Assembly: GCF_034555935.1 (NCBI RefSeq)
Contig: NZ_JAYDCJ010000003.1
Coordinates: 620,001-684,000, forward strand
Source of the DNA: Marinobacter qingdaonensis
Lineage (GTDB): Bacteria > Pseudomonadota > Gammaproteobacteria > Pseudomonadales > Oleiphilaceae
DNA length: 64,000 nucleotides
Reading direction: 5' to 3'
How positions within the stretch are numbered: the first letter of the stretch is position 1; each line of letters opens with the position of its first letter. The translations under genes and the position numbers were made by a program. This document shows, in pieces, positions 6,652 to 52,539 of this stretch. The notes beneath the pieces were generated by a model that was not told where the DNA came from, searched no databases, and saw only the letters and a list, made by a program, of their open reading frames with translations.

Positions 6652-6660
6652 TCTGATCCC

Positions 6661-7317: not shown

Positions 7318-7338
7318 CCCGCATTTAGGAGGCGAGAC

Positions 7339-8133: not shown

Positions 8134-8181
8134 CATACCGCCCAGCCATCCAAGCACGCACAACGAATTTCAACAGGAAGA

Positions 8182-9262: not shown

Positions 9263-9340
9263 CTGCGGCGCTCGTATCGGTGTATTTGTCTAATTTTTAA
9301 ACTGCATCGAGTGAATAGGCACCGTACATTCGGGACAACA

Positions 9341-10634
<1,294 letters not shown>

Positions 10635-14605: not shown

Positions 14606-16018
<1,413 letters not shown>

Positions 16019-16065
16019 TTTGAGCCGTTGCACTTGTTTCCGGATCGATCAGAGAGGCAACTGAC

Positions 16066-16488
16066 ATGGGTATGACCGTGCATTGTGATGTGGTAAGTGC
16101 CGAAACAAAGATCTATTCCGGATTGATTGAGATGCTGATCGCGGCGGGCTCTGAAGGTGACCTGGGTATTGCCCCGGGTCACACCCCGCTGCTGACTCAG
16201 CTGAAGCCGGGTCCGATTCGGATCATCAAGCAGGGCGGTGAAGAAGAAATTCTTTACGTGTCCGGCGGATATCTGGAGGTCCAGCCCAATCTGGTGACTT
16301 TGCTGGCTGACACCGCGGTTCGCGCCAAGGATGTGGACGAAGCCGCTGCTCTCGAGGCACAGAAAGAAGCCGAGAAAGCACTTGCCAACAAGACCGGTGA
16401 ATTCGAGTACTCCCGTGCCGCTGCAGAGCTGGCCGAGGCTGTTGCCCAGCTTCGGACCATCCAGCAGCTGCGCAACAAAATGCGCTAA
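16066..16488 (+). CDS. atpC: F1Fo ATP synthase subunit epsilon
   Basis: Epsilon binds gamma at the foot of F1 and inhibits ATP hydrolysis. The 140-residue protein has the N-terminal beta sandwich with [14 protein letters not shown] and the C-terminal two-helix arm rich in Ala and Glu (about residues 88-138). It is the last gene of the atp operon. Confidence 0.97.
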
Positions 16489-16517
16489 GCGCTTTCGTTT
16501 CGGGTTTGCCGAACACC

Positions 16518-16596
16518 AAAGCCGCATCCTGAGCGGCCGCAATTCCAACGCCTGGCGTTGGGCTTCGGCCACCCACGGATCGCGGCTTTTTTTGTT
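16518..16596 (+). terminator. Terminator of the atp operon
   Basis: AAAGCCGC (16518-16525) pairs with GCGGCTTT (16582-16589), which runs into a T-rich tail (16588-16596). An inner hairpin of CCAACG/CGTTGG (16545-16561) lies within the loop. The long loop is unusual for an intrinsic terminator, but the T-tail directly after the outer stem and the position 30 bp past atpC support the call. Confidence 0.6.
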
Positions 16597-16633
16597 TTAC
16601 ACCAACTGAATCCAGACATTCCGGGGGTCTGAA

Positions 16634-18007: not shown

Positions 18008-18033
18008 ACAGTTAACAGGCAGGAATAAGCAGC

Positions 18034-19866
18034 ATGTGTGGCATTGTAGGTGCGGTTTCGGAACGGGACGTCCAGGGCATTCTCCTCGAGGGCCTGCGCC
18101 GTCTGGAATATCGAGGCTATGACTCGGCCGGGATGGCCGTGGTGGACGGCGGCAACGTGGTCCAGCGTGCCCGGGAAGTCGGCAAGGTGGCGGCCCTGTC
18201 GGACGCCATCGCCGCCCACCCGCTGTCCGGTCAGCTCGGTATCGCCCATACCCGCTGGGCCACCCACGGCGAGCCGTCCCAGCTCAACGCCCACCCGCAC
18301 ATGTCCGGTGAGCGCCTGGCGATTGTCCACAACGGCATCATCGAGAACTACCAGGAGCTGCGCGAGGAACTGAAGGCCGAAGGCTACGAGTTCACCTCCC
18401 AGACCGATACCGAAGTGGTCGCGCACCTGATCGAAAAGCACTACCGGGCCGCCGGCCAGCTGTACGACGCGGTCAAAGCCGCCATCGCCCGCCTGCGCGG
18501 TGCCTACGCCCTGGCCGTGGTGCACGCCGACGAGCCGGACCACCTGGTGGTGTGCCGGGAGGGCAGTCCGCTGGTGATCGGGGTCGGCATTGGCGAGAAC
18601 TTCATCGCCTCCGATCAGCTCGCGCTGCTGCCGGTGACCGACCGGTTCATGTTCCTGGAGGAAGGCGACATCGCCGACATCCGCCGCGATTCGGTCACCA
18701 TCCACGACCGCGAGGGCACCCCGGTCGAGCGCAAGACCCTGCGTTTTGAGCACGGTTCCGACTCCGCCGAGAAGGGCGAGTACCGTCACTTCATGCTCAA
18801 GGAAATCTACGAGCAGCCCAAGGTCATCAAGGCCACCATGGAAGGCCGGATCACCGACAGCCACGTGCTCGAGCAGGCCCTGGGCACCGACGCCGCCAAC
18901 CTGCTGAGCGACGTCAACCACGTGCAGATCATCGCCTGTGGCACCAGCTACCACGCCGGCATGGTCGCCCGGTACTGGATCGAGGAGCTGGCCGGCGTGC
19001 CCTGCTCGGTCGAGGTGGCCTCCGAGTTCCGCTACCGCAAGCACGTGATCCAGCGCGACACCCTGTTCCTGTGCATTTCCCAGTCCGGTGAGACCGCCGA
19101 TACCCTGGCCGCCCTGCGTCAGGCCAAGCAGGCCGGTTTCCGCGCCGCCCTGGCCATCTGCAACGTGCCGGGCAGTTCCCTGGTGCGCGAGTCGGATCTG
19201 GTAATCATGACCCAGGCCGGGCCCGAAATCGGTGTCGCCTCCACCAAGGCCTTCACTACCCAGCTCACCGCCCTGCTGATGTTCACCCTGGCACTGGCTC
19301 GCCACAACGGCCTGAGCGAGGAGCGGGAAGCGGACATCGTCAAGGCCATCCACCAGTTGCCCGATCAGGTCGACCAGGTGCTGGCGCTGGATGCCGACAT
19401 CGCCGAGATGTCCAAGGCGTTCATGGACAAGAACCACAGCCTGTTCCTGGGCCGGGGTTCCCAGTTCCCGGTGGCCCTGGAAGGTGCGCTCAAGCTCAAG
19501 GAAATCTCCTACATCCACGCCGAGGCCTACCCGGCGGGCGAACTCAAGCACGGCCCGCTGGCGCTGGTGGACAGCGAAATGCCGGTGGTCACCGTGGCGC
19601 CCAACAACGACCTGGTGGAAAAGCTCAAATCCAACCTGGAAGAAGTCCGGGCCCGGGGCGGTGAACTCTTCGTGTTCGCCGACAGCGCCGCCGATGTGAA
19701 GGCGGAGGCAGGCATCCACGTGATGTCACTGCCGTCGGTGCACGAAATCACCGCGCCCATCGTGTACACGGTGCCGCTGCAGCTGCTGTCGTATCACGTC
19801 GCCGTGCTCAAGGGCACCGATGTGGATCAGCCGCGTAACCTGGCCAAGAGTGTCACCGTCGAATAG
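18034..19866 (+). CDS. glmS: Glutamine-fructose-6-phosphate aminotransferase (isomerizing)
   Basis: GlmS makes glucosamine-6-phosphate from fructose-6-phosphate and glutamine. The 610-residue protein begins MCGIVGA, so the catalytic Cys is residue 2 once Met is removed. The glutaminase domain (1-240) is followed by two SIS sugar-isomerase domains with [18 protein letters not shown] and STKAFTTQ. The C-terminal [13 protein letters not shown] is the family hallmark. The 26-bp gap from glmU leaves no room for a glmS ribozyme. Confidence 0.98.
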
Positions 19867-38385: not shown

Positions 38386-39123
38386 TCAGGGTGCCAGGGT
38401 GATATCGCCGTACCAGGCGGTGGCGCTTTCCCCGGTGTTGTCGGAATCGGACATGATGGCGATGCCCACCACCGGCGGCGGCGCCCCGCCAAAGGCTTCC
38501 CGGTAGTCCGCCATGATGTCCCGCTCCACGGTCACCCACTCACCAACCCGCTCCGGGCCGGAATTCACCGCCACCATCATGGTCTGGTCGGTGTAGGGGT
38601 TGGGCACGATCTCACCCTCGGGCACGGTGTTGGCCCAGATGTAATTCAGGGCATTGCCCGGCAGGGTCTCGCCGAACACCACCTCCACCGCCTTGCGCTT
38701 GGCGCGCTCGAAAAAGCCGGCCTTGTCCGGCTGGAACTCGAACGCCACGTAGATCCGCGCTGGGTAGTCGTCCCCGGATTTCTTGCGGGCATCGCCGCGC
38801 TCGAACACATTGGACACCTTCCAGCGCCAGCGCAGCACCAGCGACTCCGACGGTTCTACCTTGAGCCGGGCGATCAGCCCGGAGGCGCCGCCGTCGGTCT
38901 GGGCCCGCACCACCTGGGTGCCGTTCTCGGTGACCAGCTCGTAGCGGGAATGCTGCTCGATCTTGGGAAATTCCAGTGGCTCCCAACCGGCGCTTTTGTC
39001 CAGGCTGGTCAGGGTGGAGAAGGCGGGCAGGGTGGGGCTGTCGGCCTGGGCGTTGCCTAGTAGCCAGGGGCTCGCAGCCAGCGTGAGAGCTGGAATCAGG
39101 GTTCTTAGTCTTGTTCGAGGCAA
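38386..39123 (-). CDS. DUF3047-family exported protein
   Basis: This 245-residue protein has a signal peptide (about residues 1-27, ending AQA). The mature part has LVLRWRWKVSNVF, GDDYPARIYVAFEF, LNYIWANTVPEG, VAVNSG and VGIAIMSDSDNTGESATAWYGDI, the recognisable blocks of DUF3047. The pattern suggests a secreted beta-sandwich domain, perhaps carbohydrate-binding-like. No catalytic residues can be assigned. It stands alone between the solute-binding gene and the response regulator. Confidence 0.75.
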   Translation of the reverse strand: MPRTRLRTLIPALTLAASPWLLGNAQADSPTLPAFSTLTSLDKSAGWEPLEFPKIEQHSRYELVTENGTQVVRAQTDGGASGLIARLKVEPSESLVLRWRWKVSNVFERGDARKKSGDDYPARIYVAFEFQPDKAGFFERAKRKAVEVVFGETLPGNALNYIWANTVPEGEIVPNPYTDQTMMVAVNSGPERVGEWVTVERDIMADYREAFGGAPPPVVGIAIMSDSDNTGESATAWYGDITLAP

Positions 39124-39195: not shown

Positions 39196-40101
39196 TTAGA
39201 GAGTTGCCAACAGTTTTATGGCGCCAGCCGCGGCCGCTGTTCGATTCTCGACCCCTAGCTTCCGGAAAACCTGTTCGAGGTGTTTGTTTACGGTGCGCGG
39301 GCTCATGTCGAGGATCTCGCCAATTTCCCGATTGGTCTTACCGTTGGCAATCCACAGAAGCACATCCGATTCTCTCAGGGTGAGCTGGAATCTTTCGCGC
39401 AGGGCCGCGGCGGCGCTGTTCTGGTTTTGGGGCGTTTTCAGCCGGAGCAGGTACTCCCTGCCGTCGACCAGCGCAAGGTATTCCACCGATCTGGGTGTGT
39501 CCATGATCCGGAGAGGCATCATATGCCCGGGTTCAAGGCGGTGACCGAGCCATTCCTCGAGCTTGCCCTGAATGCGCTCGTATTCCGGATGGTTGGCATC
39601 CGGGAGGCACCGGCTCACCTGGGGAGTGCTCCACAACAAATTGCCCCCACGGTCCACGGCAAACAGGTTCTGGCCGGCGGTATCAAGGGCACTGCGTGCG
39701 CTCCGGGTCATGCGGGCGTTGGTCAGATGGACGTCCATGCGTGCCAGCATCTCCGTGGTGTTGATGGGTTTGGTGACATAGTCCACACCACCCGCATTCA
39801 GGCCCATGACCACATGCTCGGTGTCGCTCAGGCCCGTCATGAAGATGATGGGGACGTCGGTAAAAGCCGGGTTCTCCTTCAACCGTCGGCAGGTCTCGAA
39901 ACCGTCCATGTGTGGCATCAACGCATCCATGAGAACCACATCGGGTGTGATGTTCTGACTGATGGTAAGCGCCTGGTTGCCCTCAAGGGCCACAAGCACC
40001 GTCATGCCCGCTGCCTCCAGGGCGTCATTGACCATGCGAATGGAGTCGATCGCGTCATCCACGACCATCACAACGGTCTTGCGATCTTCAGGAAGGTTCA
40101 T
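39196..40101 (-). CDS. Response regulator, receiver plus LuxR-type HTH
   Basis: This 301-residue protein has an N-terminal receiver domain (about residues 9-125) with acidic residues Asp15-Asp16, phospho-acceptor Asp59 in VLMDALMP and the conserved lysine in YVTKPIN. A linker of about 110 residues follows, then a C-terminal LuxR-type HTH (about 235-298) with TLRESDVLLWIANGKTNREI. Its start overlaps the 3' end of the permease-kinase gene by 14 bp, so the two are translationally coupled and surely partners. It is the likely direct regulator of the divergent urt-ami-fmd genes. Confidence 0.9.
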   Translation of the reverse strand: MNLPEDRKTVVMVVDDAIDSIRMVNDALEAAGMTVLVALEGNQALTISQNITPDVVLMDALMPHMDGFETCRRLKENPAFTDVPIIFMTGLSDTEHVVMGLNAGGVDYVTKPINTTEMLARMDVHLTNARMTRSARSALDTAGQNLFAVDRGGNLLWSTPQVSRCLPDANHPEYERIQGKLEEWLGHRLEPGHMMPLRIMDTPRSVEYLALVDGREYLLRLKTPQNQNSAAAALRERFQLTLRESDVLLWIANGKTNREIGEILDMSPRTVNKHLEQVFRKLGVENRTAAAAGAIKLLATL

Positions 40102-43100
40102 CTTCAGTCACCTCAAGCAGTGCCAGTATTTTTTCAAACTGGAAGTCGTTGGTGAGTTGGGTTAATTCAAGGGTGAATTGTTCGGCCGCCTCGCCTCGGT
40201 GCTTCAAACCATGCAGGGCTTCCAGCAGACCCTTGCGGTGGCCAATGCGGGCGAGGTCTGCCAGTTCCAGCCGGTGGGGCAATGCGGGCAGCGGCAAGTC
40301 ACCGTTGTCGGAGACCGGAATGGCCGCCAACGGCTCGGCGCTCTTCTTGAACCGCCATTCCAGATTGAGCACCTGGCCAATGGTGTCCAACAGCAGGTTC
40401 AGCCGAACCGGTTTGATGATGTAACCGTCATGCAGTCTCGGGGAGTCTTTGGCGTGCTGACCCTCATTGGCGTCGGCAGACACCATGACCACGGGCATTC
40501 CATGTTTCTCCGCTCGCAACCGCTGCAGTACTTCCCAGCCAGTCTGACCAGGCATGGATACATCGAGTAGCACCAAATCCGGTCGTTGGTCCGCAACGGT
40601 TGGCAGGACCTCCAAGGCATTGCCAATATCGGTTATTTCGAATCCGAGCGGCGACAGCATGGCCCGGACTACCTGGCGATGGGACTGATCGTCGTCCACC
40701 AGCAGCACTTTTCGGCGGCTGCCGTGGTAACCGTAAATGCGTTTTGCTGGTGCAGAGATCGACCGTGGGCTGGCGCTGTGTACACTCGATAACATCAGGC
40801 TGACCTTGAAGGTGCTGCCCCGGCCAGGTTTGCTGTCGACACTGATGTCCCCTCCCATGATTTCCGTAAGCAGGCGGGTAATGGTCAGGCCCAGTCCGGT
40901 GCCAATTCGACTTTGACCGGGGGTGCGAATGCGTTCGAAGGGCCTGAAGATGCGTTCAATGTTTTCCGGGGAGATGCCCTCACCCGTGTCCTGCACGGTG
41001 AACTCCGCCACCTGGCTTCGATAACGAAGGCTGAGAGAGACGCCGCCCTTATCGGTGTACTTGATGGCATTGGACAGCAGGTTGATCAGAATCTGGCGAA
41101 GGCGCTTCTCGTCGGTTGTTACCATCTCGGGAAGGGGGTAGGGGCAGTGGTAGTCAAAGGCCAGGCCTTTTTCCTCCGCTTGGAGTCGGAACATGGTAAC
41201 CAGCTGTTCCATCAGCAACTCGATGCGCACCTGGTCCCGATGCAAATCCAGGCGGCCGGCTTCTATCTTGGATATGTCCAGCAGACCCTCTATCAGATCG
41301 GCGAGGTATTCCCCGCTGCGACGAATGACACCCAGTGCCTCCTGGCGATGGGGAGGTACGGTCTCGTCATTTTCCATCAGCTGGGCGTAACCGAGGATGG
41401 CATTGAGGGGTGATCGGAGTTCGTGACTGATGCCCGTGAGATATCGACTTTTAGCGCCATTAGCCGCTTCTGCCTGTTCCTTGGCCTGTTGCAGGGCCAG
41501 ATCGGTGCGTTCGTGGGCAACAATCTCTTCGGTTAGTAGCCGTGTCTGTCGAAAAGACTCCTCTTCCGCCACCACCCGGCTTTCATGAGCCAGAACGAAG
41601 AGCCAGCAGACAACCCCGGTCACGATGACAAGAATGAAGAATACCTTCCATAGCGTGATCGAGAGCAACAGAGCTTCCGGCTCCGAAGCCACGGGAGTCT
41701 TGAAGTAAATCAGGGATAGCAGCAGGGCGGAGAGCCCGTTGATCAGTACCAGTAAGGTCAGGAAATGGCCCAGTCGGGAGTGCAGCCGGCTCAGAATGGC
41801 ATCGGGAACCAGCTTGCCCAGGAATTGTTGCAATTGTTCCCGGTAGCCCGCCCCGGGCTTGCAGGCGTCGCCGCATCGGGCATCCAGGGAACAACACAGG
41901 GAGCAGATGGTGCCTTCGTACACCGGGCAACCGGTTACGTCTTCTGGCTCAAATCGGTGCTCACAGATGCAGCACTGCACCAGTTCCTGATCGGTGGCGA
42001 TCGGGGTAAACGGACGGGCAGTGTAGAACCGGCCGTCGGTGCGCCAGGCAATCAGCGGCGCGGTGGCCAGCGCGGTTGCCAGGGCGATGAAGTGGGACAG
42101 GGCTTCGGCATAGCTGCCGAGGATGCCGGTATGGCAGGTGATGCCGACCACGGAAGCGGTGATCATGGCACCGACGCCGACCGGGTTGATGTCATAGAGA
42201 TGGGCCCGCTTGAACTCAATGTGAGGAGGGCTGAGTCCCAGCGGCTTGTTGATCACCAGGTCCGCGACTAGCGAGCCTACCCAGGCGATGGCAATGATGC
42301 CGTAAAAGCCTAGCGTCTCTTCGAGTGCCCGGTAGACCCCCAACTCCATCACCAGCAGGGCGATGGCCACATTGAAGCACAGCCACACGACTCGTCCCGG
42401 GTGACTGTGGGTCAAACGCGAGAAGAAATTGGACCAGGCAATGGAGCCGGCGTAGGCGTTGGTGACGTTGATCTTGAGCTGGCACAGGATGACGAAAATA
42501 CCTGCCATGGCCAGGGACACGTCAGGCGAGTTAGTCAGATAATTGAATGCCACGAGGTACATTTGGGTCGGATCGGCGGCTTCTTCAGGAGAGACGCCCT
42601 GGTTCAGTGCCAAGACCGCCAGGAACGACCCCGCCAGAATCTTTAGCATGCCGATGACAATCCAGCCTGGCCCCCCGGACATCACCGCCAGCCACCACCG
42701 CCGTTTTTCCTCCTGGTTACGGGGTTCCGGGATGAACCGAAGAAAATCCACCTGCTCGCCGATCTGGGCAATCAGTGAAAAAACTACGGCTGCCGCCGCG
42801 CCAAACATCACCACGTTCAGACCCTGATTGTTGGTGGCCAAAGCGCCCTCGAATTGGGTCCAGTCGCTGATGGAAGATGCGTCGGCGTAAATGATGAACA
42901 CAAACGGGGCGAGTTGGAGCAGAACCCATACCGGCTGGGTCCAGACCTGGAAGCGGCTGATGGTGGTGATGCCATGGGTCACCAGTGGAATGATGGCGAC
43001 CGCGCAGATTAGATAGCCCAAAACCAGGGGAATGTCGAAAAGCATTTCCAGGGCCATGGCCATGATGGCCGCTTCAATGGCGAAGAAAATGAAGGTGAAC

Positions 43101-43471
43101 GAGGCGTAAATCAGCGAAGTGATGGTGGAGCCGATGTAACCGAAGCCCGCGCCCCGGGTAAGCAGATCGATATCCACGCCATAGCGAGCCGCGTAATAGC
43201 TGATGGGGATCGCGGTCAGGAAGATCACCAGACTGACCAGCAGAATCGCGACCACGGCATTATCGAAGCCGTAGTGCAGGGTGATGGAGCCCCCAATTGC
43301 CTCCATGGCCAGGAACGAAATGGCGCCCAGCGCGGTGTTACTGACCCGTGCTGCGGACCAGCGTCGTGCGCTCTTGGCAGTAAATCGAAGGGCGTAGTCT
43401 TCCAGGGTTTGATTGGCGACCCACTGATTGTAACTGCGTCGAACCCGGAAAATGTTCTGTCGTGCGGCCAT
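40088..43471 (-). CDS. NCS1-type permease fused to hybrid histidine kinase
   Basis: I chose ATG 43471 (MAARQNIF), giving 1,127 residues; the longer frame upstream lacks helices and a ribosome site. Residues 1 to about 480 form a 12-helix purine/cytosine (NCS1) permease-like domain. A cysteine-rich segment (about 498-545, CCICEHRF...CSLCCS...CGDAC) follows, then two more helices (about 565-640). A HisKA domain has ISHELRSP with phospho-His at about 682, then HATPase (about 780-895, GTGLGLTI). A receiver domain (about 915-1035, acceptor Asp near 969 in LLDVSMPG) and a helical tail complete it. It is built like CbrA, but with NCS1 instead of an SSS transporter. Located beside an amide/urea uptake and hydrolysis operon, it probably senses or imports a nitrogenous compound. 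Confidence 0.9.
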   Translation of the reverse strand: MAARQNIFRVRRSYNQWVANQTLEDYALRFTAKSARRWSAARVSNTALGAISFLAMEAIGGSITLHYGFDNAVVAILLVSLVIFLTAIPISYYAARYGVDIDLLTRGAGFGYIGSTITSLIYASFTFIFFAIEAAIMAMALEMLFDIPLVLGYLICAVAIIPLVTHGITTISRFQVWTQPVWVLLQLAPFVFIIYADASSISDWTQFEGALATNNQGLNVVMFGAAAAVVFSLIAQIGEQVDFLRFIPEPRNQEEKRRWWLAVMSGGPGWIVIGMLKILAGSFLAVLALNQGVSPEEAADPTQMYLVAFNYLTNSPDVSLAMAGIFVILCQLKINVTNAYAGSIAWSNFFSRLTHSHPGRVVWLCFNVAIALLVMELGVYRALEETLGFYGIIAIAWVGSLVADLVINKPLGLSPPHIEFKRAHLYDINPVGVGAMITASVVGITCHTGILGSYAEALSHFIALATALATAPLIAWRTDGRFYTARPFTPIATDQELVQCCICEHRFEPEDVTGCPVYEGTICSLCCSLDARCGDACKPGAGYREQLQQFLGKLVPDAILSRLHSRLGHFLTLLVLINGLSALLLSLIYFKTPVASEPEALLLSITLWKVFFILVIVTGVVCWLFVLAHESRVVAEEESFRQTRLLTEEIVAHERTDLALQQAKEQAEAANGAKSRYLTGISHELRSPLNAILGYAQLMENDETVPPHRQEALGVIRRSGEYLADLIEGLLDISKIEAGRLDLHRDQVRIELLMEQLVTMFRLQAEEKGLAFDYHCPYPLPEMVTTDEKRLRQILINLLSNAIKYTDKGGVSLSLRYRSQVAEFTVQDTGEGISPENIERIFRPFERIRTPGQSRIGTGLGLTITRLLTEIMGGDISVDSKPGRGSTFKVSLMLSSVHSASPRSISAPAKRIYGYHGSRRKVLLVDDDQSHRQVVRAMLSPLGFEITDIGNALEVLPTVADQRPDLVLLDVSMPGQTGWEVLQRLRAEKHGMPVVMVSADANEGQHAKDSPRLHDGYIIKPVRLNLLLDTIGQVLNLEWRFKKSAEPLAAIPVSDNGDLPLPALPHRLELADLARIGHRKGLLEALHGLKHRGEAAEQFTLELTQLTNDFQFEKILALLEVTEDEPS

Positions 43472-43783
43472 CGCTGCCTTGCCTGTGTACTTGGCCGGGA
43501 CAATGCCCGGTTTTGGTGCGGTTTGGTGTTCTGGGCACCGGATCAGAAAGCCAAAACAAGTTCCGTGCCATCGCTCGGGGTGACTGGATCTCTGGTCAGG
43601 TGAGCACGGGTACCTGCGTTTTAGCCGGTTTGGGCCAGTACCGGAATGCGTCAAATGACGTAGTGCGCTGGGGTGATTGCCGAATGGGCACCCACAAGGG
43701 GGCTGAGCAGAATGTTTGTCGTGGGCGCTGTGCTTTCGCGAGGAGGTGCGGTACCGGCTTTTCAAACACTGCGAGGATTCACC
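43472..43783. promoter_or_regulatory. Divergent control region between the permease-kinase and urtA
   Basis: This 312-bp gap has no supported gene. It contains the dyad CGTCAAATGACG (43649-43660) inside a 41-bp element that recurs upstream of fmdA. It also has an inverted repeat CCGGG/CCCGG (about 43496-43512), and a GAGGAT ribosome site just before the urtA ATG. Neither a clear sigma-70 pair nor a correctly spaced sigma-54 GG/GC pair was found. Confidence 0.55.
43645..43685 (+). promoter_or_regulatory. Shared element, copy 1 (upstream of urtA)
   Basis: An ungapped comparison of this stretch with 50834-50874 gives about 30 identities in 41 positions. The best part is CGTCAAATGACGTAG (43649-43663) against CGTCGAATGACGTAG. 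The centre is a dyad CGTCA-AA-TGACG. It lies about 100-140 bp upstream of the urtA ATG. It is the best candidate operator for the neighbouring response regulator. Confidence 0.55.
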
Positions 43784-45052
43784 ATGGGTACTACAGAGTT
43801 AACCGCCAATGGGCGGTCGATAGGCAAGGGGCTGGGGTTTCGCAAGAGCCTGATGACACTGGCGGCGTCGGTCATGCTGGCAACCTCCGTCCAGGCGGCA
43901 GTGCCAAGCACCGCTGAGGTCAACACCACTGGGTTGGCGGTTACCGACGACAGCGTCACCGTCGGCATTCTGCATTCGATCACCGGCACCATGGCCATCA
44001 GTGAGATCGGTTCGGTGCAGGCGGAAAAACTGGCCATCGACCAGATCAACGCCTCCGGCGGTGTACTTGGCCGTCAAATCGAATACGTTCAGGAAGACGG
44101 CGCCAGCGACTGGCCAACCTTTGCCGAGAAATCCCGCAAGCTGTTGCGTCAGGATGATGTCGCGGCTATTTTCGGTGCCTGGACCTCAGCCTCCCGCAAG
44201 GCCATCTTGCCGGTGATCGAGCAGTACAACGGCATGCTCTACTACCCAACCTTCTATGAGGGCCTCGAGCAGTCGCCGAACGTGGTCTACACGGGCCAGG
44301 AAGCCACCCAGCAGATCCTGGCGGGGATCGACTGGGCGGTCAAAGAGAAGGGCGCCAAGACCTTCTATCTGCTGGGCTCCGACTATATCTGGCCACGCAC
44401 CTCCAACAAGATCGCCCGCAAACACATCGACAAGCTGGGCCTGAAAGTGGTGGGTGAAGAGTACTACCCCCTGGGCCACACCCAGTTCAACTCGGTCATC
44501 AACAAGATCAAGCTGAAGAAACCGGACGTGATCTTCGCATCCGTGGTCGGTGGCTCGAACGTGGCTTTCTACAAGCAGATGAAAGCCGCGGGCGTTGATT
44601 TCACGGACGAGCAGCCGCTGCTGCTGACCATCTCGGTCACCGAGGATGAAATCCGTGGCATCGGTGGTGAGAACGTGGAAGGCATTTACGCCTCCATGAA
44701 GTACTTCCAGAGCCTGGATAACCCCAACAACCAGGAGTTCGTCAAGGCGTTCAAGGAGACCTACGGCGACGACATGGTCATCGGCGATGTGACCCAGGCT
44801 GCCTACCTTGGGCCGTGGCTGTGGAAAGCCGCCGTTGAAAAAGCGGGCTCCTTTGACATCGACAAGATCCGCGAAGTCTTTGCCGGTATCGAGTTCAACA
44901 AGGCACCGGAAGGCTACGTGCGCATCCATGAAAACCATCACCTCTGGTCCAAGACCCGAATCGGCCGCGCTCAGACGGATGGCCAGTACCAGGTGGTCTA
45001 TGAGACCGAGGAGCTGATGGAGCCGGATCCGTTCCCCGAGGGCTACCAGTAA
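43784..45052 (+). CDS. urtA: Urea/short-chain amide ABC transporter substrate-binding protein
   Basis: This 422-residue periplasmic protein of the UrtA/FmdD/AmiC-like Leu-binding family starts at ATG 43784, preceded by GAGGATT. A longer in-frame start lacks a ribosome site. The signal peptide runs to about residue 39 (ATSVQA). The mature protein has VTVGILHSITGTMAISE, LPVIEQYNGMLYYPTFYEG and NVVYTGQEATQQ, which are strongly UrtA-like. The cognate permeases and ATPases follow. The downstream amidases suggest that short amides such as formamide or acetamide are the cargo as much as urea; no urease is in the window. Confidence 0.9.
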   Translation: MGTTELTANGRSIGKGLGFRKSLMTLAASVMLATSVQAAVPSTAEVNTTGLAVTDDSVTVGILHSITGTMAISEIGSVQAEKLAIDQINASGGVLGRQIEYVQEDGASDWPTFAEKSRKLLRQDDVAAIFGAWTSASRKAILPVIEQYNGMLYYPTFYEGLEQSPNVVYTGQEATQQILAGIDWAVKEKGAKTFYLLGSDYIWPRTSNKIARKHIDKLGLKVVGEEYYPLGHTQFNSVINKIKLKKPDVIFASVVGGSNVAFYKQMKAAGVDFTDEQPLLLTISVTEDEIRGIGGENVEGIYASMKYFQSLDNPNNQEFVKAFKETYGDDMVIGDVTQAAYLGPWLWKAAVEKAGSFDIDKIREVFAGIEFNKAPEGYVRIHENHHLWSKTRIGRAQTDGQYQVVYETEELMEPDPFPEGYQ

Positions 45053-45135: not shown

Positions 45136-46062
45136 ATGTTTGATGGCTACACCAGCAGTGAGTTGATGTCGATATTTGCCATGCAGGGGTTCGCCGGGCT
45201 CTCCCTGTTTTCAGTCTTCGTTCTGATGGCAATGGGCCTGGCGATCATCTTCGGTCAGATGGGGGTGATCAACATGGCCCACGGGGAGTTCATGATCCTC
45301 GGCGCCTACACCACCTACCTGACCTCGGGTTTCTTTCAAAGCTATCTGCCGGGACTGTTCGGCGGTTACTTCCTTGTTGCCATGGTGTTGGCCTTTCTGA
45401 TCTGCGCCGCCCTGGGGGCGCTCGTTGAGTGGCTCATGATAAGGCACCTGTACCACCGGCCCCTGGACACCCTCTTGGCCACCTGGGGCCTCAGCCTGAT
45501 CATGCAACAGGCCTATCGGTCCATCTTTGGTGCCCGGGAGGTGGGCGTGGAACTGCCGGACTGGATGATGGGCGCGTTCCAGGTGACTGACCTGGTCGAA
45601 CTGCCGATCAACGGTCTGTTCGTGATGATCATTGCGCTGTCCATTGCCGTGGGTGTGTACCTGCTCATGTATCGCTCCGGCTATGGCAAAAAGGTTCGCG
45701 CGGTAGTCCAGAACCGTCCCATGGCGGAAGCGGTAGGGATCAACAGCGCCGGTATTGACCGGGCCACCTTCGCTCTCGGTTGCGGCATTGCCGGTATTGC
45801 CGGTGCGGCGTTCACCATGATCGGCTCCACTGGTCCCTCGTCTGGCCAGGCCTATATCGTCGACACCTTCCTGGTGGTGGTCTTTGGCGGCGCACAGAGC
45901 CTGATCGGCACCATTGTGTCCGCGTTCGGCATCTCCCAGGCCCAGTCGACCATGGAGTTCTTCCTCAGTGGTTCCATGGCCAAAGTACTCACCCTGTTGG
46001 TGGTCGTAGGCATTCTCATGTTGCGCCCCGAAGGCCTGATTGCCCTCAAGGTCCGTCGCTAG
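45136..46062 (+). CDS. urtB: Urea/amide ABC transporter permease UrtB
   Basis: This 308-residue inner-membrane permease belongs to the LivH/UrtB group. It has eight or nine helices with GLAIIFGQMGVINMAHGEF, a hallmark segment, near residue 35 and GGAQSLIGTIVSAFGI near residue 255. It lacks the long N-terminal extension found in some UrtB proteins. It lies 83 bp after urtA and 9 bp before urtC. Confidence 0.93.
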   Translation: MFDGYTSSELMSIFAMQGFAGLSLFSVFVLMAMGLAIIFGQMGVINMAHGEFMILGAYTTYLTSGFFQSYLPGLFGGYFLVAMVLAFLICAALGALVEWLMIRHLYHRPLDTLLATWGLSLIMQQAYRSIFGAREVGVELPDWMMGAFQVTDLVELPINGLFVMIIALSIAVGVYLLMYRSGYGKKVRAVVQNRPMAEAVGINSAGIDRATFALGCGIAGIAGAAFTMIGSTGPSSGQAYIVDTFLVVVFGGAQSLIGTIVSAFGISQAQSTMEFFLSGSMAKVLTLLVVVGILMLRPEGLIALKVRR

Positions 46063-46071
46063 GAGTCCGTC

Positions 46072-47277
46072 ATGAAAACACCGTCTGTTCTGAATTGGTT
46101 TACCTCCCGCGAGGGGCTCTACTACCTCGCCCTGGCCGCACTGCTGCTGGTGATTTTGCCCCTGGCACTGGATCCCTTCCGGCTCAACATGGTGGGCAAG
46201 TACCTGACCTATGCATTCGTCGCCATCGGTCTGGTGATGTGTTGGGGCAAGGCCGGCATCCTGAGTCTTGGTCAGGGCGTGTTCTTTGGTCTTGGCGGCT
46301 ACTGCATGGCGATGTTCCTGAAGCTGGAAGCCTCCACTCCCGAGGCCACCGCCATCCAGTCGACGCCGGGCATTCCGGACTTCATGGATTGGAACCAGCT
46401 CACTGAACTGCCCTGGTTCTGGGAACCGTTCCACAGCTTTTCCTTCACGCTGATTGCGGTGATTGGGGTGCCGATGTTGTTGGCGTTCGCCATCGGTCTC
46501 GCCATGTTCACCCGGCGGGTGGGAGGGGTGTACTTCGCCATCATCACCCAGGCCATCGCCGCCATCCTGACCATCCTGATCATCGGACAGCAGGGCTATA
46601 CCGGGGGCGTCAACGGCATTACCGACCTGCAGACCTTGATGGGCTGGGACATCCGGACCGATGCCGCCAAAACCACCCTCTACTTCGTTTGCGTGGGCAT
46701 GCTCTTCCTGTCCCTGTTTGTGGCGCGACTGGTACAGAACCGCAAACTCGGCCGCATCCTGGTGGCCATGAATGCGCAGGAAAACCGGGTGCGTTTCTCC
46801 GGCTATGACGTCGCCGCGTTCAAGATCTTCGTGTTCTGCCTGGCGGCCGCGTTCGCCGGGATTGGTGGTGCCCTGTTCACGCTGATCGTGGGGTTCATGT
46901 CGCCGTCGTTCATCGGCATCGTCGCTTCCATCGAAATGGTGATCTTCTGCGCCCTCGGCGGCCGGCTCTCCATTCTCGGTGCGGTCTACGGCGCACTGCT
47001 GGTGAACGCCGCCAAGAGTGGCTTCTCCGAATCCTTCCCCGAGCTCTGGCCGTTTGCCATGGGTGCCCTGTTCATCGGCGTGGTACTGGCGTTTCCGAAC
47101 GGTCTGGCCGGCCTGTACCAGAGCTACGTCATGCCGCTGGAAGAGCGGCTGTTCAAGCGCAAGCCGAAAGTGGCAAAACCGGAACCGATACCCGAGGCAC
47201 GGAAACCCGCCACCGTTGAAACCCGGGAGCGCGACTACGACCCGATGATCGATCACTACAGCCCGGAGAAATCCTGA
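46072..47277 (+). CDS. urtC: Urea/amide ABC transporter permease UrtC
   Basis: This 401-residue permease of the LivM/UrtC group has about 10 helices with MCWGKAGILSLGQGVFFGLG near residue 56, TQAIAAILTI and the NGITDLQ segment typical of UrtC. A charged cytoplasmic tail of about 45 residues, rich in Lys, Pro and Glu, closes it. Its stop overlaps the urtD start by one base, so they are translationally coupled. Confidence 0.93.
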   Translation: MKTPSVLNWFTSREGLYYLALAALLLVILPLALDPFRLNMVGKYLTYAFVAIGLVMCWGKAGILSLGQGVFFGLGGYCMAMFLKLEASTPEATAIQSTPGIPDFMDWNQLTELPWFWEPFHSFSFTLIAVIGVPMLLAFAIGLAMFTRRVGGVYFAIITQAIAAILTILIIGQQGYTGGVNGITDLQTLMGWDIRTDAAKTTLYFVCVGMLFLSLFVARLVQNRKLGRILVAMNAQENRVRFSGYDVAAFKIFVFCLAAAFAGIGGALFTLIVGFMSPSFIGIVASIEMVIFCALGGRLSILGAVYGALLVNAAKSGFSESFPELWPFAMGALFIGVVLAFPNGLAGLYQSYVMPLEERLFKRKPKVAKPEPIPEARKPATVETRERDYDPMIDHYSPEKS

Positions 47278-48035
47278 TGAATGCAGGCAAAGCAAAAAGT
47301 GGTGATTTCCTGCTGGCGGTGGAGGGACTCACCGTGTCCTTCGACGGTTTCAAGGCGGTGGATGACCTTTCGTTTTACCTCGATCCAAAGGAAATCCGGG
47401 TCATCATCGGTCCCAATGGGGCCGGCAAGACCACGGTACTGGACCTGATTTGCGGTAAGACCAAGGCCACCGCCGGCTCTATCAAGTTTGGGGGCAAGGA
47501 ACTGACGAAACTCAAAGAGCACCAGATCGTCCACAGCGGCGTCGGCCGCAAGTTCCAGACCCCCTCGGTGTTCGAGGACCTAACGGTGTTCGAGAACCTG
47601 GAGCTGTCCTTCCCCCGGGGCCACAGCGTGATGGGCGCCCTCGCGTTCAAACGCGATCCTGCCGTGGTCGAGGCGGTGCAGGAGGTGGCCGAAACCATCT
47701 TCCTGGCTGACGCCCTCGACCAGCCCGCCGCTCTGCTTAGCCATGGCCAGAAGCAATGGCTGGAGATCGGCATGCTGCTGATCCAGAAGCCGGCCCTGCT
47801 CATGCTGGACGAACCGGTGGCCGGCATGTCGGTGGCTGAACGCAAGAAAACCGCGGAATTGCTCAAGGTCATAACCAAAGACCACACGGTGCTGGTGATC
47901 GAGCACGACATGCAGTTTGTCGGCGACATCGCGGACCGGGTGACGGTCATGCACCAGGGCAAGGTTCTCTCGGAAGGGTCCATCGAGCACGTGAAGTCGG
48001 ATCCGAAAGTCGTCGAAGTCTACCTGGGGCACTGA
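47277..48035 (+). CDS. urtD: Urea/amide ABC transporter ATPase UrtD
   Basis: This 252-residue ATPase of the LivG/UrtD group has Walker A GPNGAGKTT at about residues 43-51. The ABC signature is LSHGQKQWLEIG, as in UrtD, rather than LSGGQ, and Walker B is LLMLDEPVAGM. It couples ATP hydrolysis to UrtBC. Overlap with urtC and a 2-bp gap to urtE show one operon. Confidence 0.95.
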   Translation: MNAGKAKSGDFLLAVEGLTVSFDGFKAVDDLSFYLDPKEIRVIIGPNGAGKTTVLDLICGKTKATAGSIKFGGKELTKLKEHQIVHSGVGRKFQTPSVFEDLTVFENLELSFPRGHSVMGALAFKRDPAVVEAVQEVAETIFLADALDQPAALLSHGQKQWLEIGMLLIQKPALLMLDEPVAGMSVAERKKTAELLKVITKDHTVLVIEHDMQFVGDIADRVTVMHQGKVLSEGSIEHVKSDPKVVEVYLGH

Positions 48036-48037: not shown

Positions 48038-48727
48038 ATGCTGAGCGTTAAACATCATTCGGTGGCCTATGGCCAGAGCACCATCATCGAGGACCTGAAC
48101 CTCGATGTGACCAAAAACGAGATCGTGGCGGTCGTTGGCCGCAACGGCATGGGCAAGACCACGCTGATGAAGTCCCTGGTGGGCATGACCGCCACCAAGG
48201 GCGGTGAGGTCAGCCTGGATGGCACTAACCTCTCCAATCTCAAGAGTTTCCAGCGTGTTCGCGCCGGTCTCGGGTTCGTGCCCCAGGGCCGGATGATTTT
48301 CCCGACCCTGACGGTCAAGGAGAACATCGAGACCGGACTGGCCGCGGTGGGGGAGAAGAAAGTTCCCGAAGACCTGTACGAATTGTTCCCGGTGCTCAAG
48401 GAAATGCAGAACCGTCGGGGCGGCAACTTGTCTGGCGGCCAGCAGCAACAGCTGGCGATTGCCCGAGCGCTTGCCACCCGACCCAAGGTGCTGCTGCTCG
48501 ATGAACCCACCGAAGGCATCCAGCCCAACATCATCAAGGACATGGCGCAGACCCTTCGGCGTATTCGGGACGAACGGGGGCTGTCGATCGTGGTGTCGGA
48601 GCAGGTGTTGAGTTTCGTGATGGACACCGCCGACCGGATTCTGGTGATCGAAAAGGGGAGCATTGTGCACGAAGAGAGCCGGGCTGAGGCCGATCAGGAA
48701 AAAATAGCCAGTTACCTGGCGGTTTAA
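48038..48727 (+). CDS. urtE: Urea/amide ABC transporter ATPase UrtE
   Basis: This 229-residue ATPase of the LivF/UrtE group has Walker [10 protein letters not shown] near residue 32, signature [15 protein letters not shown] near 130 and Walker [15 protein letters not shown]. Together with UrtD it forms the heterodimeric motor of the importer. amiE follows after 14 bp, linking uptake to hydrolysis in one transcript. Confidence 0.95.
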
Positions 48728-48741: not shown

Positions 48742-49788
48742 ATGAGACACGGTGATATTTCCAGCAGCAATGATACCGTCGGCGTCGCGGTGGTGAACTA
48801 CAAGATGCCCCGCCTGCACACGCGGGACGAGGTCCTGGCCAACGCCCGCAAGATTGCAGACATGATCAAGGGCATGAAAGTGGGGCTGCCGGGCATGGAC
48901 CTGGTGGTTTTCCCGGAATACAGCACCATGGGCATCATGTACGACAACGACGAGATGATGGAAACCGCCGCCACTATCCCGGGTGACGAAACCGCCATCT
49001 TTGCCGCTGCCTGCCGCGAGGCCAACACCTGGGGCGTGTTTTCCCTGACCGGTGAGCGTCATGAGGACCATCCGAGAAAGGCCCCCTACAACACCCTCGT
49101 TCTGATCAATAACGAGGGCGAAATCGTCCAGAAATACCGCAAGTGTATTCCCTGGTGCCCGATCGAAGGTTGGTACCCGGGTGACACCACCTATGTCACC
49201 GAGGGCCCGAAGGGCATGAAGATCAGCCTGATCATCTGCGACGACGGCAACTATCCCGAGATCTGGCGCGACTGCGCCATGAAGGGCGCGGAACTGATCG
49301 TGCGCTGCCAGGGCTACATGTACCCGGCCAAGGAACAGCAGGTCATGATGGCCAAGAGCATGGCGTGGGCCAATAACTGCTATGTGGCTGTCGCCAATGC
49401 TTCCGGTTTTGACGGCGTCTATTCCTACTTCGGCCACTCCGCGATCATCGGTTTTGATGGCCGTACCCTGGGCGAATGTGGCGAGGAAGACATGGGTGTG
49501 CAGTACGCCCAGCTGTCCGTGAGCCAGATTCGCGATGCCCGCGCTAACGACCAGTCCCAGAACCACCTGTTCAAACTGCTGCACCGGGGTTATTCCGGAG
49601 TCCATGCCTCGGGCGATGGCGACAAGGGCATCGCAGACTGTCCGTTCGAGTTCTATCGCACTTGGGTCATGGATGCGCAAAAAGCCCAGGAAAACGTGGA
49701 GGCCATGACGCGATCAACCGTCGGCGTGGCCGAATGCCCGGTTGGGGAACTGCCCGTCGAGGGCCGGGAAAAATCCGCAGGGGCCTAA
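48742..49788 (+). CDS. amiE: Aliphatic amidase AmiE
   Basis: AmiE hydrolyses short aliphatic amides such as acetamide and propionamide to the acid and ammonia. The 348-residue nitrilase-superfamily protein is strikingly similar to the Pseudomonas aeruginosa enzyme from its first residues ([20 protein letters not shown]). The catalytic triad is in the same numbering: Glu59 in FPEY, Lys134 in KYRK and Cys166 in [17 protein letters not shown] lies 8 bases before the ATG. It lies between urtE and amiB. Confidence 0.96.
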
Positions 49789-49803
49789 GCCCGGGAGGTG
49801 GTT

Positions 49804-50847
49804 ATGCCGTTTATCAATGAACGGCTGGAAGCCAACCGGGAATCCATCGACGCGAACCGGGCCAATTCAGGCCCGGTTCGTGTTTCCCGGTTCCGGTTCC
49901 AGCCCGAGGCCGTGATGACCCGCCTGCGGGCAAACATTGTGGGCCAGAATGAGGCGCTTGCCGCCATGGAAGCCATGCTGGTGCGGGTGAAAGCCGACAT
50001 TGGGGCGGAAAACCGGCCGCTGGCGGTGCATCTGTTTCTCGGCTCCACCGGGGTCGGCAAGACCGAAACGGTGCGGCTGATTGCCGAGGCTATCCACGGT
50101 CACCAGGATGCGCTCTGCCGGATCGACATGAACACCCTGGCACAGGAGCACTATGCGGCCGCCCTGACCGGGGCCCCACCCGGATATGTCGGCAGCAAGG
50201 AGGGCCATAGCCTGTTTGATCCGGAAAAGGTTCAGGGCTCGTTCAGCAAGCCGGGAGTTGTGCTCTTCGATGAGATCGAGAAAGCCAACAAGGACGTGGT
50301 TCGCACCCTGATGAACGTGCTGGACACGGGTCGCCTGGTGCTGCCTGCTGGCAATCGGGAGATCGATTTCCGGAACACCCTGATCTTCATGACCAGCAAC
50401 GCCGGTGCCCTGGACGCCGAGGCTCACGAACAGCGCTTCCAGCGTGGCTGGCGACGCTGGCTGGGTGTGTCGCCCACAGGGGGCGAGGCCATTCGGGATG
50501 CCGCCCTTCGCCGCCACTTCGACCCGGAATTCCTGAATCGGATCGACCAGATCCTGACCTTCAACAACCTCGCCGGAGACTGGCTGGATGCCCTCCTGGA
50601 CATTGAACTGGCCGCACTCAACCGCCGCCTGGCGCGCAAGCAGGCTGAGTTGTGGCTGTCGCCCCAGCTCCGGTCCCACCTGTGCCAGGGCTACGACCGT
50701 CGCTACGGCGCCCGGGAAATGATGAGAGCGTTCCGGCAGCGACTGGAACCCGCCGTTGCCGGTGCCTTGCTGGCGCAACCCGAGATTACGCGGTTCAGGG
50801 CCGATGTTCACGACCGTGACATCAGGGTGAGCCAATACGTCGAATGA
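49804..50847 (+). CDS. amiB: AmiB-type AAA+ ATPase (ClpA/B-like)
   Basis: This 347-residue single-module AAA+ protein has Walker A GSTGVGKTE near residue 81 and Walker B VVLFDEIEKAN near residue 155. It resembles the second ATPase module of ClpA/ClpB, including the C-terminal GYDRRYGAREM segment. It lacks Clp N-domains. I chose ATG 49804, with GGAGG 6-10 bases upstream, over GTG 49798. It follows amiE by 15 bp, as in the P. aeruginosa amiEBCRS operon, but amiC, amiR and amiS are absent. Its role in amide metabolism is not established; a chaperone or transport-energising role has been suggested for the homologue. The stop codon lies inside the second copy of the shared element. Confidence 0.85.
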   Translation: MPFINERLEANRESIDANRANSGPVRVSRFRFQPEAVMTRLRANIVGQNEALAAMEAMLVRVKADIGAENRPLAVHLFLGSTGVGKTETVRLIAEAIHGHQDALCRIDMNTLAQEHYAAALTGAPPGYVGSKEGHSLFDPEKVQGSFSKPGVVLFDEIEKANKDVVRTLMNVLDTGRLVLPAGNREIDFRNTLIFMTSNAGALDAEAHEQRFQRGWRRWLGVSPTGGEAIRDAALRRHFDPEFLNRIDQILTFNNLAGDWLDALLDIELAALNRRLARKQAELWLSPQLRSHLCQGYDRRYGAREMMRAFRQRLEPAVAGALLAQPEITRFRADVHDRDIRVSQYVE

Positions 50848-50874
50848 CGTAGGGACCGGGGGCATTTCGCGAAT
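50834..50874 (+). promoter_or_regulatory. Shared element, copy 2 (upstream of fmdA)
   Basis: CGTCGAATGACGTAG (50838-50852) matches the urtA-upstream copy at 14 of 15 positions, and the similarity extends to about 30 of 41 bases. It overlaps the amiB stop codon and lies about 75-115 bp upstream of the fmdA ATG, in a 100-bp gap. This suggests that fmdAB has its own promoter under the same control as urtA. Confidence 0.55.
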
Positions 50875-50947: not shown

Positions 50948-52180
50948 ATGGCTGAAACCATCATCAAGATTGACCTGAACAAGTCGGCCTACGAGAACGA
51001 CAAAGTCCACAACCGCTGGCACCCGGATATCCCCCTCGTGGCCACGGTAAAACCGGGCGACGATTTCATTGTTGAGTGCTACGACTGGACCGGTGGTCAG
51101 ATCAAGAACGACGACAGCGCGGACGACGTGCGCGATGTGGACCTCAGCCAGGTGCACTTCCTGTCCGGTCCGATTGGTGTTGAGGGCGCCGAGCCCGGCG
51201 ATCTGCTGGAAGTCGACATTCTGGATATTGGCACCTTTGAGGAAAGCCAGTGGGGTTTCAACGGCTTCTTTTCCAAGCAGAATGGCGGCGGATTCCTGAC
51301 CGAACACTTCCCGGACGCTCAGAAAAGTATCTGGGACTTCAATGGCATGTTCACCAAGTCGCGCCACATCCCGAACGTGGAGTTTGCCGGCCTGATTCAC
51401 CCGGGGTTGATTGGCTGCCTGCCTTCGAAGGAACTGCTCGATACCTGGAACAAGCGGGAGGCCGGACTGGTGGCCACCGATCCAGAACGGGTTCCGGAGC
51501 TGGCCACACTGCCGAACGGCGAAACCGCCCACATGGGTCAGATGCGTGGTGAGGAAGCCAAGGCGGCCGGTGCCGAAGCGGCCCGAACCGTGCCGCCCCG
51601 GGAGCACGGGGGTAACTGCGACATCAAAGACCTGTCCAGGGGCTCGAAGGTGTATTTCCCGGTGTACGTGGACGGTGCCGGGCTGTCGGTTGGTGACCTT
51701 CACTTCAGCCAGGGCGACGGTGAAATCACCTTCTGCGGCGCCATCGAAATGGCCGGCTGGATCCACCTGCGGGTCAACCTGATTAAGGATGGTGTCAGGA
51801 AATATGGCATCAAGAACCCGGTGTTCAAACCCAGCCCGATCAAGCCGCGCTACGACGATTACGTGATCTTCGAGGGCATCTCCGTGGATGAAGACGGTGG
51901 CCAGCACTACCTAGATGTCCATGTCGCGTACCGTCAGGCCTGCTTGAACGCCATCGAATACATGACCAAGTTTGGTTACACCAAGGCCCAAGCCTACGCG
52001 ATTCTCGGATGTGCACCGGTGGAAGGCCACATCAGCGGGGTTGTCGACATCCCCAACGCTTGCGCCACGCTGTGGTTGCCAACGGGCATTTTTGACTTCG
52101 ACATCAACCCGTCGGCCGATGGTCCGCAGAAGAAGGTCAGTGGTGGCATGGATGTGCCGCTGTCGAAAGACAAGGAGTAA
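50948..52180 (+). CDS. fmdA: Formamidase FmdA (acetamidase/formamidase family)
   Basis: FmdA hydrolyses formamide to formate and ammonia. The 410-residue protein matches the Methylophilus methylotrophus FmdA length. Blocks seen include HNRWHPDIP, YDWTGGQIKNDDSADDV, FSGLIHPG-like FAGLIHPGLIGCLPS, PPREHGGNCDIKDL and CAPVEGHISGVVDIPNACATLWLP, with conserved His, Asp and Glu residues likely to bind zinc. It has no signal peptide. fmdB follows after 5 bp. Together with AmiE it lets the cell use both formamide and longer aliphatic amides as nitrogen sources. Confidence 0.94.
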   Translation: MAETIIKIDLNKSAYENDKVHNRWHPDIPLVATVKPGDDFIVECYDWTGGQIKNDDSADDVRDVDLSQVHFLSGPIGVEGAEPGDLLEVDILDIGTFEESQWGFNGFFSKQNGGGFLTEHFPDAQKSIWDFNGMFTKSRHIPNVEFAGLIHPGLIGCLPSKELLDTWNKREAGLVATDPERVPELATLPNGETAHMGQMRGEEAKAAGAEAARTVPPREHGGNCDIKDLSRGSKVYFPVYVDGAGLSVGDLHFSQGDGEITFCGAIEMAGWIHLRVNLIKDGVRKYGIKNPVFKPSPIKPRYDDYVIFEGISVDEDGGQHYLDVHVAYRQACLNAIEYMTKFGYTKAQAYAILGCAPVEGHISGVVDIPNACATLWLPTGIFDFDINPSADGPQKKVSGGMDVPLSKDKE

Positions 52181-52185: not shown

Positions 52186-52539
52186 ATGCCCGTTTACGAT
52201 TACAAGTGCCGCGAGCATGGCTTGTTTAACACGCTGGCCACCATGGAGGACGCGGCCAAACCGGCGGAATGCCCGACCTGTAAGGTACTGTCGCCTCGGG
52301 TAATCGTGCTGCCGCCAGAGATCGCCGCGATGGACCCTACCAAGCGCAAAGCTCAGGAGCGCAACGAGCGGTCGCGCTATGAGCCAGTGTTTTCGACAGC
52401 GGACCGGCGGGCGCACGACGCCGAACACAGCCGCAGTTGCGGCTGTGGAGGCGCGAAACCCGGCAAATCCATGCTGTTCTACACCGCGGATGGCAAGAAG
52501 ATGTTTCCGTCCATGCGGCCCTGGATGATCAGTCACTGA
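52186..52539 (+). CDS. fmdB: FmdB-type zinc-ribbon protein
   Basis: This 117-residue protein begins MPVYDYKCREHGLF and has a CPTC pair near residue 27, forming the N-terminal zinc ribbon of the FmdB/CxxC_CxxC_SSSS family. A second cysteine cluster CGCGG lies near residue 85. FmdB is encoded beside formamidase in Methylophilus and is thought to be regulatory or needed for expression, but this is not proven. It is the last gene of the amide regulon and ends 30 bp before a strong terminator. Confidence 0.85.
   Translation: MPVYDYKCREHGLFNTLATMEDAAKPAECPTCKVLSPRVIVLPPEIAAMDPTKRKAQERNERSRYEPVFSTADRRAHDAEHSRSCGCGGAKPGKSMLFYTADGKKMFPSMRPWMISH

Follow-up and report, generated by a model that had tools for sequence, protein, structure and literature searches.

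An NCS1-type permease domain joined to a hybrid histidine kinase as a putative receptor for amides and urea in Marinobacter qingdaonensis

What is a permease doing at the head of a sensor kinase? The question is raised by a locus of Marinobacter qingdaonensis contained in a window of 64,000 nucleotides (the whole stretch of DNA analysed here: contig NZ_JAYDCJ010000003.1, positions 620,001 to 684,000), in which genes for the uptake and hydrolysis of amides lie divergent from a two-gene unit on the minus strand. One gene of that unit (40088..43471, minus strand, ATG at 43471) encodes an NCS1-type hybrid sensor histidine kinase of 1,127 residues, the main subject of this report, and the other encodes a response regulator. 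We think it probable that the kinase is a transporter-derived receptor, or transceptor, in a two-component system responding to small carboxamides and urea.

The minus-strand frame at 40088-43471 is fully open, the plus-strand frame of the same stretch being broken by several stops. From its N-terminus the chain comprises, all on the minus strand: an NCS1-like permease domain (residues 1-490, 42002..43471) with about 12 hydrophobic segments by simple hydropathy; a module of eight cysteines, here Cys8 (residues 500-537, 41861..41974), of the pattern CxxC ... CSLCC ... C ... C, delimited by alignment and cysteine counts, with cysteines at 500, 503, 515, 523, 526, 527, 533 and 537; two extra helices ahead of the kinase (residues 570-628, 41588..41764), placed by hydropathy at about 570-588 and 610-628; and three Pfam domains whose scores all far exceed the cut-offs, namely HisKA with a SHELRSP box (residues 673-739, 41255..41455), HATPase_c (residues 786-894, 40790..41116) and a Response_reg receiver (residues 922-1031, 40379..40708). 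The kinase motifs SHELRSP, NLLSNA, DTGEG and GTGLGL are intact, as is LLDVSMP in the receiver. Open frame, Pfam and hydropathy together bear out the original prediction of a single chain running from permease through cysteines and two helices to HisKA, HATPase and receiver. The coupled LuxR-type regulator that it also announced is a LuxR/NarL-type response regulator of 301 residues (39196..40101, minus strand), with a receiver and a LuxR-type helix-turn-helix by Pfam; its gene lies downstream of the kinase gene and overlaps it by 14 bases. The label NahK/ErcS (NF041832) was rejected for the kinase, which reached 215.8 bits against a curated cut-off of 400.

Does the permease domain belong to NCS1? 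Pfam offers no model for it even at E<=10, PF02133 included, so that the claim needed a separate test. A profile of 99 family sequences was compared by hhalign with target profiles from sampled genomes of the class, in which 7 of 7 rows were kept for NCS1, 20 of 20 for SSS, 4 of 5 for BCCT and 14 of 15 for APC. The family profile scored 99.3% against NCS1, over 467 colinear columns at 18% identity, versus 2.9% against SSS, 2.2% against APC and 1.9% against BCCT; in a control for sensitivity, ordinary NCS1 scored 74.4% against SSS and 84.5% against APC. The Transp_cyt_pur (PF02133) cut-off of 23.5 bits is passed by three homologues, the stand-alone permeases of loci L039 (31.7) and L319 (37.7) and the distant relative L268 (35.9). 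L039 and L319 are the two that do so among six stand-alone relatives at about 40-54% identity; L034, L315, L318 and L321 have no Pfam match, and NCBIfam yielded no model for the three stand-alone forms tried. A PDB sequence search returned a single match, at E 0.44, for the permease domain alone and none at E<=10 for the family profile. Domain searching as such therefore recognised the kinase and receiver parts and left the permease domain without a Pfam match, though its homologues have one. By profile comparison the domain is a divergent branch of NCS1, and the predicted family membership came through a test in which a non-NCS1 family could have matched better.

How general is the association with amide genes? 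The domain occurs in 18 of 369 genomes of the class (counting the window's own genome and a contig-end fragment, G038) and, with the own genome again counted, in 52 of the 398 genomes sampled from the phylum, and a wider contig scan gave at least 578 confirmed relatives. The nearest by identity among the matches listed come from a metagenome-assembled genome labelled Halomonas (91%) and from Marinobacter salinexigens (88%). About 20 kb (less at contig ends) was fetched around each copy from these class and phylum samples, the G038 fragment excepted, and with the window and L268 (28% identical) set aside 74 sampled copies were scored. Genomes G000 and G107 belong to both samples, two copies come from each of L024 and L034, and certain rows nearly duplicate others, so that the counts are of non-independent events. 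Neighbouring genes were scored by six-frame comparison with reference proteins; clusters built by greedy choice of open reading frames had been dropped, with apparent antisense shadow frames among them and 7 of 10 representatives lacking a Pfam match. A setting was called amide if it held FmdA, AmiE or an amide-type UrtA, and urea if it held urease genes or a urea-type UrtA, defined by over 60% identity to UrtA of one urease locus (L240); the stretch fetched for four urea-type loci (L246, L251, L255 and L263) showed no urease gene.

On this scoring 43 copies stand in an amide setting, 21 in a urea setting and one in both: 65 of the 74 are linked to such genes, as against none of 20 control regions of 19.9 kb placed at round coordinates in 20 of these genomes. 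The survey of kinase-permease fusions for urt, fmd and ami neighbours thereby carries the predicted tie to amide or urea use across the family. Among the top 80 loci, which are the best 80 of the at least 578 relatives and favour close relatives, with many from Bradyrhizobium, 79 copies passed the length filter, with 68 in amide settings, six in urea settings and five in neither. On a quick tree the two settings are clustered but interleaved, the fewest changes being 10 for amide and 13 for urea, of which well-supported branches force at least 8 and at least 10, against means of 37.7 and 25.3 after shuffling. From this interleaving it seems that one receptor has been re-paired with either the amide or the urea gene set. 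The stand-alone forms L034 and L039 diverge close to the base, but the tree has only a midpoint root and the branches of L039 and L268 are long. In genome G249, locus L024 carries two sensors (5905-9372 and 15410-18817) about 9.5 kb apart, one of them beside urtABCDE-fmdA. In the urease loci L252 and L257 the sensor gene stands at the distal end of the ure cluster, with no strict palindrome in the fetched stretch, which stops before urtA.

If kinase and regulator form one system, where would the regulator act? Each of the 67 fused hybrid kinases sampled has a relative of the regulator in its locus (in L024 a single regulator was seen for two kinases). The intergenic regions between kinase gene and urtA share a palindrome with the consensus TRCGTCR-NN-YGACGYA. 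Its core, CGTCANNTGACG, is exact in 35 of 117 such regions, versus 0-1 in five mononucleotide-shuffled sets, and is present with at most one mismatch in 60 of the 117, versus 0-3 in the shuffles; two mismatches proved uninformative (77 of 117 versus 12-19). The degenerate 16-mer TRCGTCRNNYGACGYA is matched perfectly at two places in the 4.0-Mb genome as a whole, both of them in the window: a predicted operator TGCGTCAAATGACGTA before urtA (43647..43662, no strand) and another, TACGTCGAATGACGTA, before fmdA (50836..50851, no strand), each with CGAAT at the same offset of 34 bases from the start of the site. The strict 16-mer is perfect in 33 of the top 80 loci and within one mismatch in 48, and in the control regions it is perfect in 0 of 20 and within one mismatch in 1 of 20. 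The site stays with the urtA-type operon when that operon lies kilobases from the kinase gene, perfect in L117 (at 17671) and with one mismatch in L246 (at 13639) and L263 (at 3378), and in L034 a perfect site separates the kinase gene from a cluster of stand-alone permease, fmdA and amiE.

The family also occurs on plasmids, with matches in 536 of 72,556 records, 342 of them named Klebsiella. On a Klebsiella quasipneumoniae IncFIB/IncU plasmid (L316) a kinase 53% identical to that of the window is divergent from urtABCDE and a formamidase gene, with a one-mismatch palindrome between kinase and urtABCDE.

What might the domain bind? Window residues were mapped to Mhp1 by three MAFFT modes, all agreeing, and conservation was counted over 155 rows, one of which is the distant L268. 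The likeness to Mhp1 and PF02133 lies in the colinear profile match and in the asparagines kept at both N positions (N314 to N335, N318 to N338). The differences lie in the C-terminal cysteine module and in the pocket, in residues that we take to form the aromatic substrate cage (W117 and W220) and the Na2 site (Ser312 and Thr313): W117 corresponds to F129, Q121 to E133, W220 to I234, S312 to K333 and T313 to I334. Across the family the position of W117 is F in 145 of 155 rows and that of W220 is V in 73 and I in 60, so that neither the Mhp1-type cage nor, on these presumed roles, the Ser/Thr pair of the Na2 site is kept. E133, Q236, D242, Q331, N335, N338 and Y340 are the same in every one of the 155 rows, and position 333 has Lys in 154 of them and Arg in L268. 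All this amounts to a hint: a ring ligand is made less likely by the missing aromatic cage, the glutamate at the Q121 position could take the NH2 group of an amide, and the lysine at the Na2 site suggests Na+ independence. The seven ordinary NCS1 rows vary too at several of the mapped columns, including W220 and S312, so that the changes in cage and Na2 site bear on the use of substrate and ion and not on the fold family. A column-by-column comparison of sensors from amide settings with those from urea settings revealed no clean switch in the pocket.

In the reading that we prefer, the NCS1-fold domain, probably no longer Na+-coupled, would bind formamide, acetamide and/or urea, and may or may not continue to transport them. 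The Cys8 module and the two extra helices would relay a change in the state of the permease to the HisKA-HATPase kinase; together with its own receiver, the kinase would control the adjoining LuxR-type regulator. The regulator would then bind TRCGTCR-NN-YGACGYA before urtABCDE-amiE and before fmdA, switching on uptake and hydrolysis of the same compounds.

Several observations weigh against this reading. The Pfam scan recognised no histidine phosphotransfer (HPt) domain in the hybrid kinase, despite its receiver. Nine of the 74 sampled copies have no amide or urea genes; short or cut contigs account for L028, L221 and L267, and do not account for L025, L029, L030, L032, L037 and L040. As for the operator, the 20 control regions hold nine sites within one mismatch of the core CGTCANNTGACG, though none that is exact. 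One mismatch in the 16-mer adds four genome sites (6 forward in all), and since the reversed control pattern has 4 matches these are at chance level. The strict 16-mer is perfect in 20 of 73 sampled loci (window counted) and within one mismatch in 30; in 11 of the 117 intergenic regions even three allowed mismatches give no core, and all that the Bradyrhizobium rows offer is a looser, TACG-N8-CGTA-like element. A consensus search of 43450-43850 yielded no sigma-70-like promoter.

A further adverse point leads to the main alternative. The transporter domain of CbrA is reported, in the excerpts available, not to be essential for signal perception (PMC9100948), and the NCS1 domain need therefore not be the sensor. 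The regulon would then be the same, with sensing inside the cell: the domain would act as an anchor or a functional permease, with the linker or the kinase responding to the imported amide or urea or to a product such as ammonia. The stand-alone versions in catabolic clusters, which look like working permeases, favour this scheme too. Against it, no PAS or other Pfam sensor domain passes the cut-off between the helices and HisKA in the window protein, and the invariant mapped pocket residues are common to nine aligned stand-alone forms, being equally invariant in fused and free proteins. We regard intracellular sensing as possible but rather unlikely.

Far less probable is a classical NCS1 ligand, such as a nucleobase, allantoin or hydantoin, that is degraded to urea or amides. 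In favour of it are the NCS1 fold family and the annotation of relatives as allantoin or cytosine permeases. In the pocket, however, the positions of the two presumed cage tryptophans of Mhp1 are mostly phenylalanine and aliphatic residues and that of Q121 is glutamate in every row, and both fused and stand-alone forms have urease, formamidase and amidase genes around them (no search was aimed at purine or hydantoin genes).

The Cys8 module can be considered on its own. Each of the eight cysteines is kept in 142-153 of 155 rows, gaps being counted as misses. Strong matches to the module were found in 16 of 274 genomes, 15 of them at members of the sensor/permease family and one (G038) at a contig end with the preceding part cut off; two weak matches of about 20 bits (G154 and G164) were treated as chance. 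The best PDB matches of the module are zinc fingers, with E from 1.7e-4 and covering mainly its first half, and Pfam gave weak matches only; we assign the module no fold. Among the stand-alone permeases an eight-cysteine form is present in L034 and Methylovirgula, a four-cysteine motif ends those of Klebsiella, Acinetobacter, Moraxella and L039, and nearly all the cysteines are lost in the forms from Arthrobacter and Tsukamurella (Actinomycetota). The suggestion in the original prediction that this block binds metal or senses redox thus gained a zinc-finger-like pattern and nothing beyond it, and was set back by the two relatives without most of the cysteines. That the module is the sensor, of metal, redox or nickel status for urease, with the permease as anchor only, is favoured by that pattern and its conservation but seems to us the least probable of the schemes, by a little, since the module also stands, often with four cysteines, at the tail of free permeases, is largely lost in actinobacterial forms near amidase or formamidase genes, and would have no evident metal to serve in formamidase and amidase clusters.

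The stand-alone relatives indicate what the branch may do when no kinase is attached. The plasmid cases come from 10 of 20 matches listed, 528 records having matched. Nine of 11 evaluable stand-alone permeases lie in urease, formamidase or amidase clusters (the two from Acinetobacter being near-copies): that of L034 with fmdA and amiE; that of L039 with urease genes; that of Moraxella divergent from fmdA; that of Methylovirgula after a kinase and a regulator, with fmdA and an amidase gene nearby and no urt genes annotated in the stretch; the two of Acinetobacter before ureEFG; that of Klebsiella (L319:5989-7596) after ureG in a ure operon that, in this record, contains an insertion sequence; that of Arthrobacter U41 before an amidase gene and an AAA ATPase gene; and that of Tsukamurella with fmdA about 0.8 kb on. 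Those of Streptomyces angustmyceticus and Arthrobacter NicSoilB11 have no link to amide or urea genes, and the record of Streptomyces chartreusis, being without annotation, was left out of the 11. The Klebsiella protein, annotated 'cytosine permease', is from its setting a candidate urea permease. On the Moraxella plasmid (L315:6063-9557) fmdB-fmdA and the stand-alone permease lie amid insertion sequences and aminoglycoside-resistance genes.

The same sensor part also heads other proteins: kinases without a receiver beside fmdA (L264 and L265), other kinases (L030 and L040) and, in L037:7849-11526, a PAS-GGDEF-EAL protein, in which the permease-Cys-helices module is joined to something other than a kinase, so that its signal may feed cyclic di-GMP in that genome. 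We give about even weight to a wider proposal: that an undescribed branch of NCS1 carries urea and short amides independently of Na+, with stand-alone transporters encoded in clusters for urease, formamidase or amidase, and that in Pseudomonadota it gained cysteines and two helices and became a plug-in receptor on hybrid kinases, simple kinases, a PAS-kinase and a GGDEF-EAL protein, forming a general system of urea and amide sensing with its own operator.

The genes facing the kinase fit the amide-use operon that had been predicted beside it. Their order on the plus strand, divergent from the kinase-regulator pair, is urtABCDE-amiE-AAA-fmdA-fmdB. They encode a urtA-type binding protein (43784..45052; TIGR03407 over cut-off, start placed at the ATG after GAGG); permeases of urtB type (45136..46062) and urtC type (46072..47277) and ATPases of urtD type (47277..48035) and urtE type (48038..48727), these four by domain match; the aliphatic amidase AmiE (48742..49788; 717 bits with NF009802, cut-off 427); an AAA ATPase of ClpB-D2 type by family models (49798..50847), AmiB-like by position and presumably to be called AmiB; the formamidase FmdA (50948..52180; NF045496, 790 bits against a cut-off of 500); and an fmdB-type zinc-ribbon protein by family model (52186..52539). 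An AAA ATPase gene adjoins the amidase gene at Arthrobacter U41 (L321:8784-9917) as it does in the window, and may help the amidase. Immediately downstream of the regulator gene, 38386-39123 encodes a DUF3047 protein.

Which known systems does this one resemble? By analogy, CrbS/CrbR is the closest in its working: it too combines a transporter-like N-terminus, a hybrid kinase and a LuxR-type regulator, and in the excerpts available it has an imperfect palindrome before acs and actP, that is, before catabolic and transporter genes (PMC5715377). It differs in serving acetate through an SLC5/STAC protein, whereas the window permease is NCS1 (with the low SSS score given above), in its palindrome, and in governing acetate genes in place of amide and urea genes; the window chain has Cys8 and two helices, with no STAC match in Pfam at E<=10 (the presence of a STAC model in Pfam was unchecked). 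Compared with the SLC5/STAC kinases CbrA, CrbS and RpuS, the parts of the window system and its predicted-operator palindrome are present at the level of sequence. CbrA of Pseudomonas likewise holds transporter and kinase in one chain. The window lysine K333, aligned to Mhp1 Ser312 with its presumed Na2-site role, has a parallel in CbrA. There a lysine, K196, fills the Na2 site, and the chain differs from ours in its SLC5 transporter and its STAC and PAS domains (PMC13022988, available excerpts). An ammonium sensor kinase of Kuenenia is similar in that a domain for transport of a nitrogen compound is fused to a histidine kinase (PMC5764959, in part), and differs in being Amt with ammonium rather than NCS1 with amides and urea.

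The genes themselves are of the same kind as those of AmiC/AmiR systems and of the fmdCABDEF cluster of M. methylotrophus. AmiC/AmiR differs in relying on a binding protein and an antiterminator, as the accessible part of PMC13209695 has it. In the window's own genome there is no AmiS/UreI match and no AmiR-like ANTAR protein was found; the sole ANTAR protein is of NIT-ANTAR type and is encoded 200 kb away from the window. The predicted role in place of AmiC/AmiR fits these results (AmiC was not searched for separately), and the best reading is that the system serves where AmiC/AmiR otherwise would. The accessible part of PMC13209695 also describes a chromosomal amiE-fmdAB-urtABCDE locus in P. 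veronii without amiC/amiR in the locus; the same strain uses acetamide and formamide as nitrogen source and has in addition a plasmid amidase operon with amiC/amiR. Elsewhere, a urtABCDE operon with a hybrid kinase and a LuxR regulator is listed with no function given in the excerpts available (PMC13296017). Among the full-text literature matches listed, a body from which most subscription journals are absent, no description of the NCS1-kinase or its regulator was found.

Transporter-kinase proteins are called rare in the excerpts of PMC13022988, and in the described examples cited here the transporter part is SLC5 or Amt. If our reading is true, NCS1 would be added to these families, and a regulator would be supplied for many amiE-fmdA-urtABCDE clusters and for some urease clusters. 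It would also predict the cargo of stand-alone 'allantoin/cytosine permeases' in urease operons, and would show how a nutrient pump can turn into a sensor.

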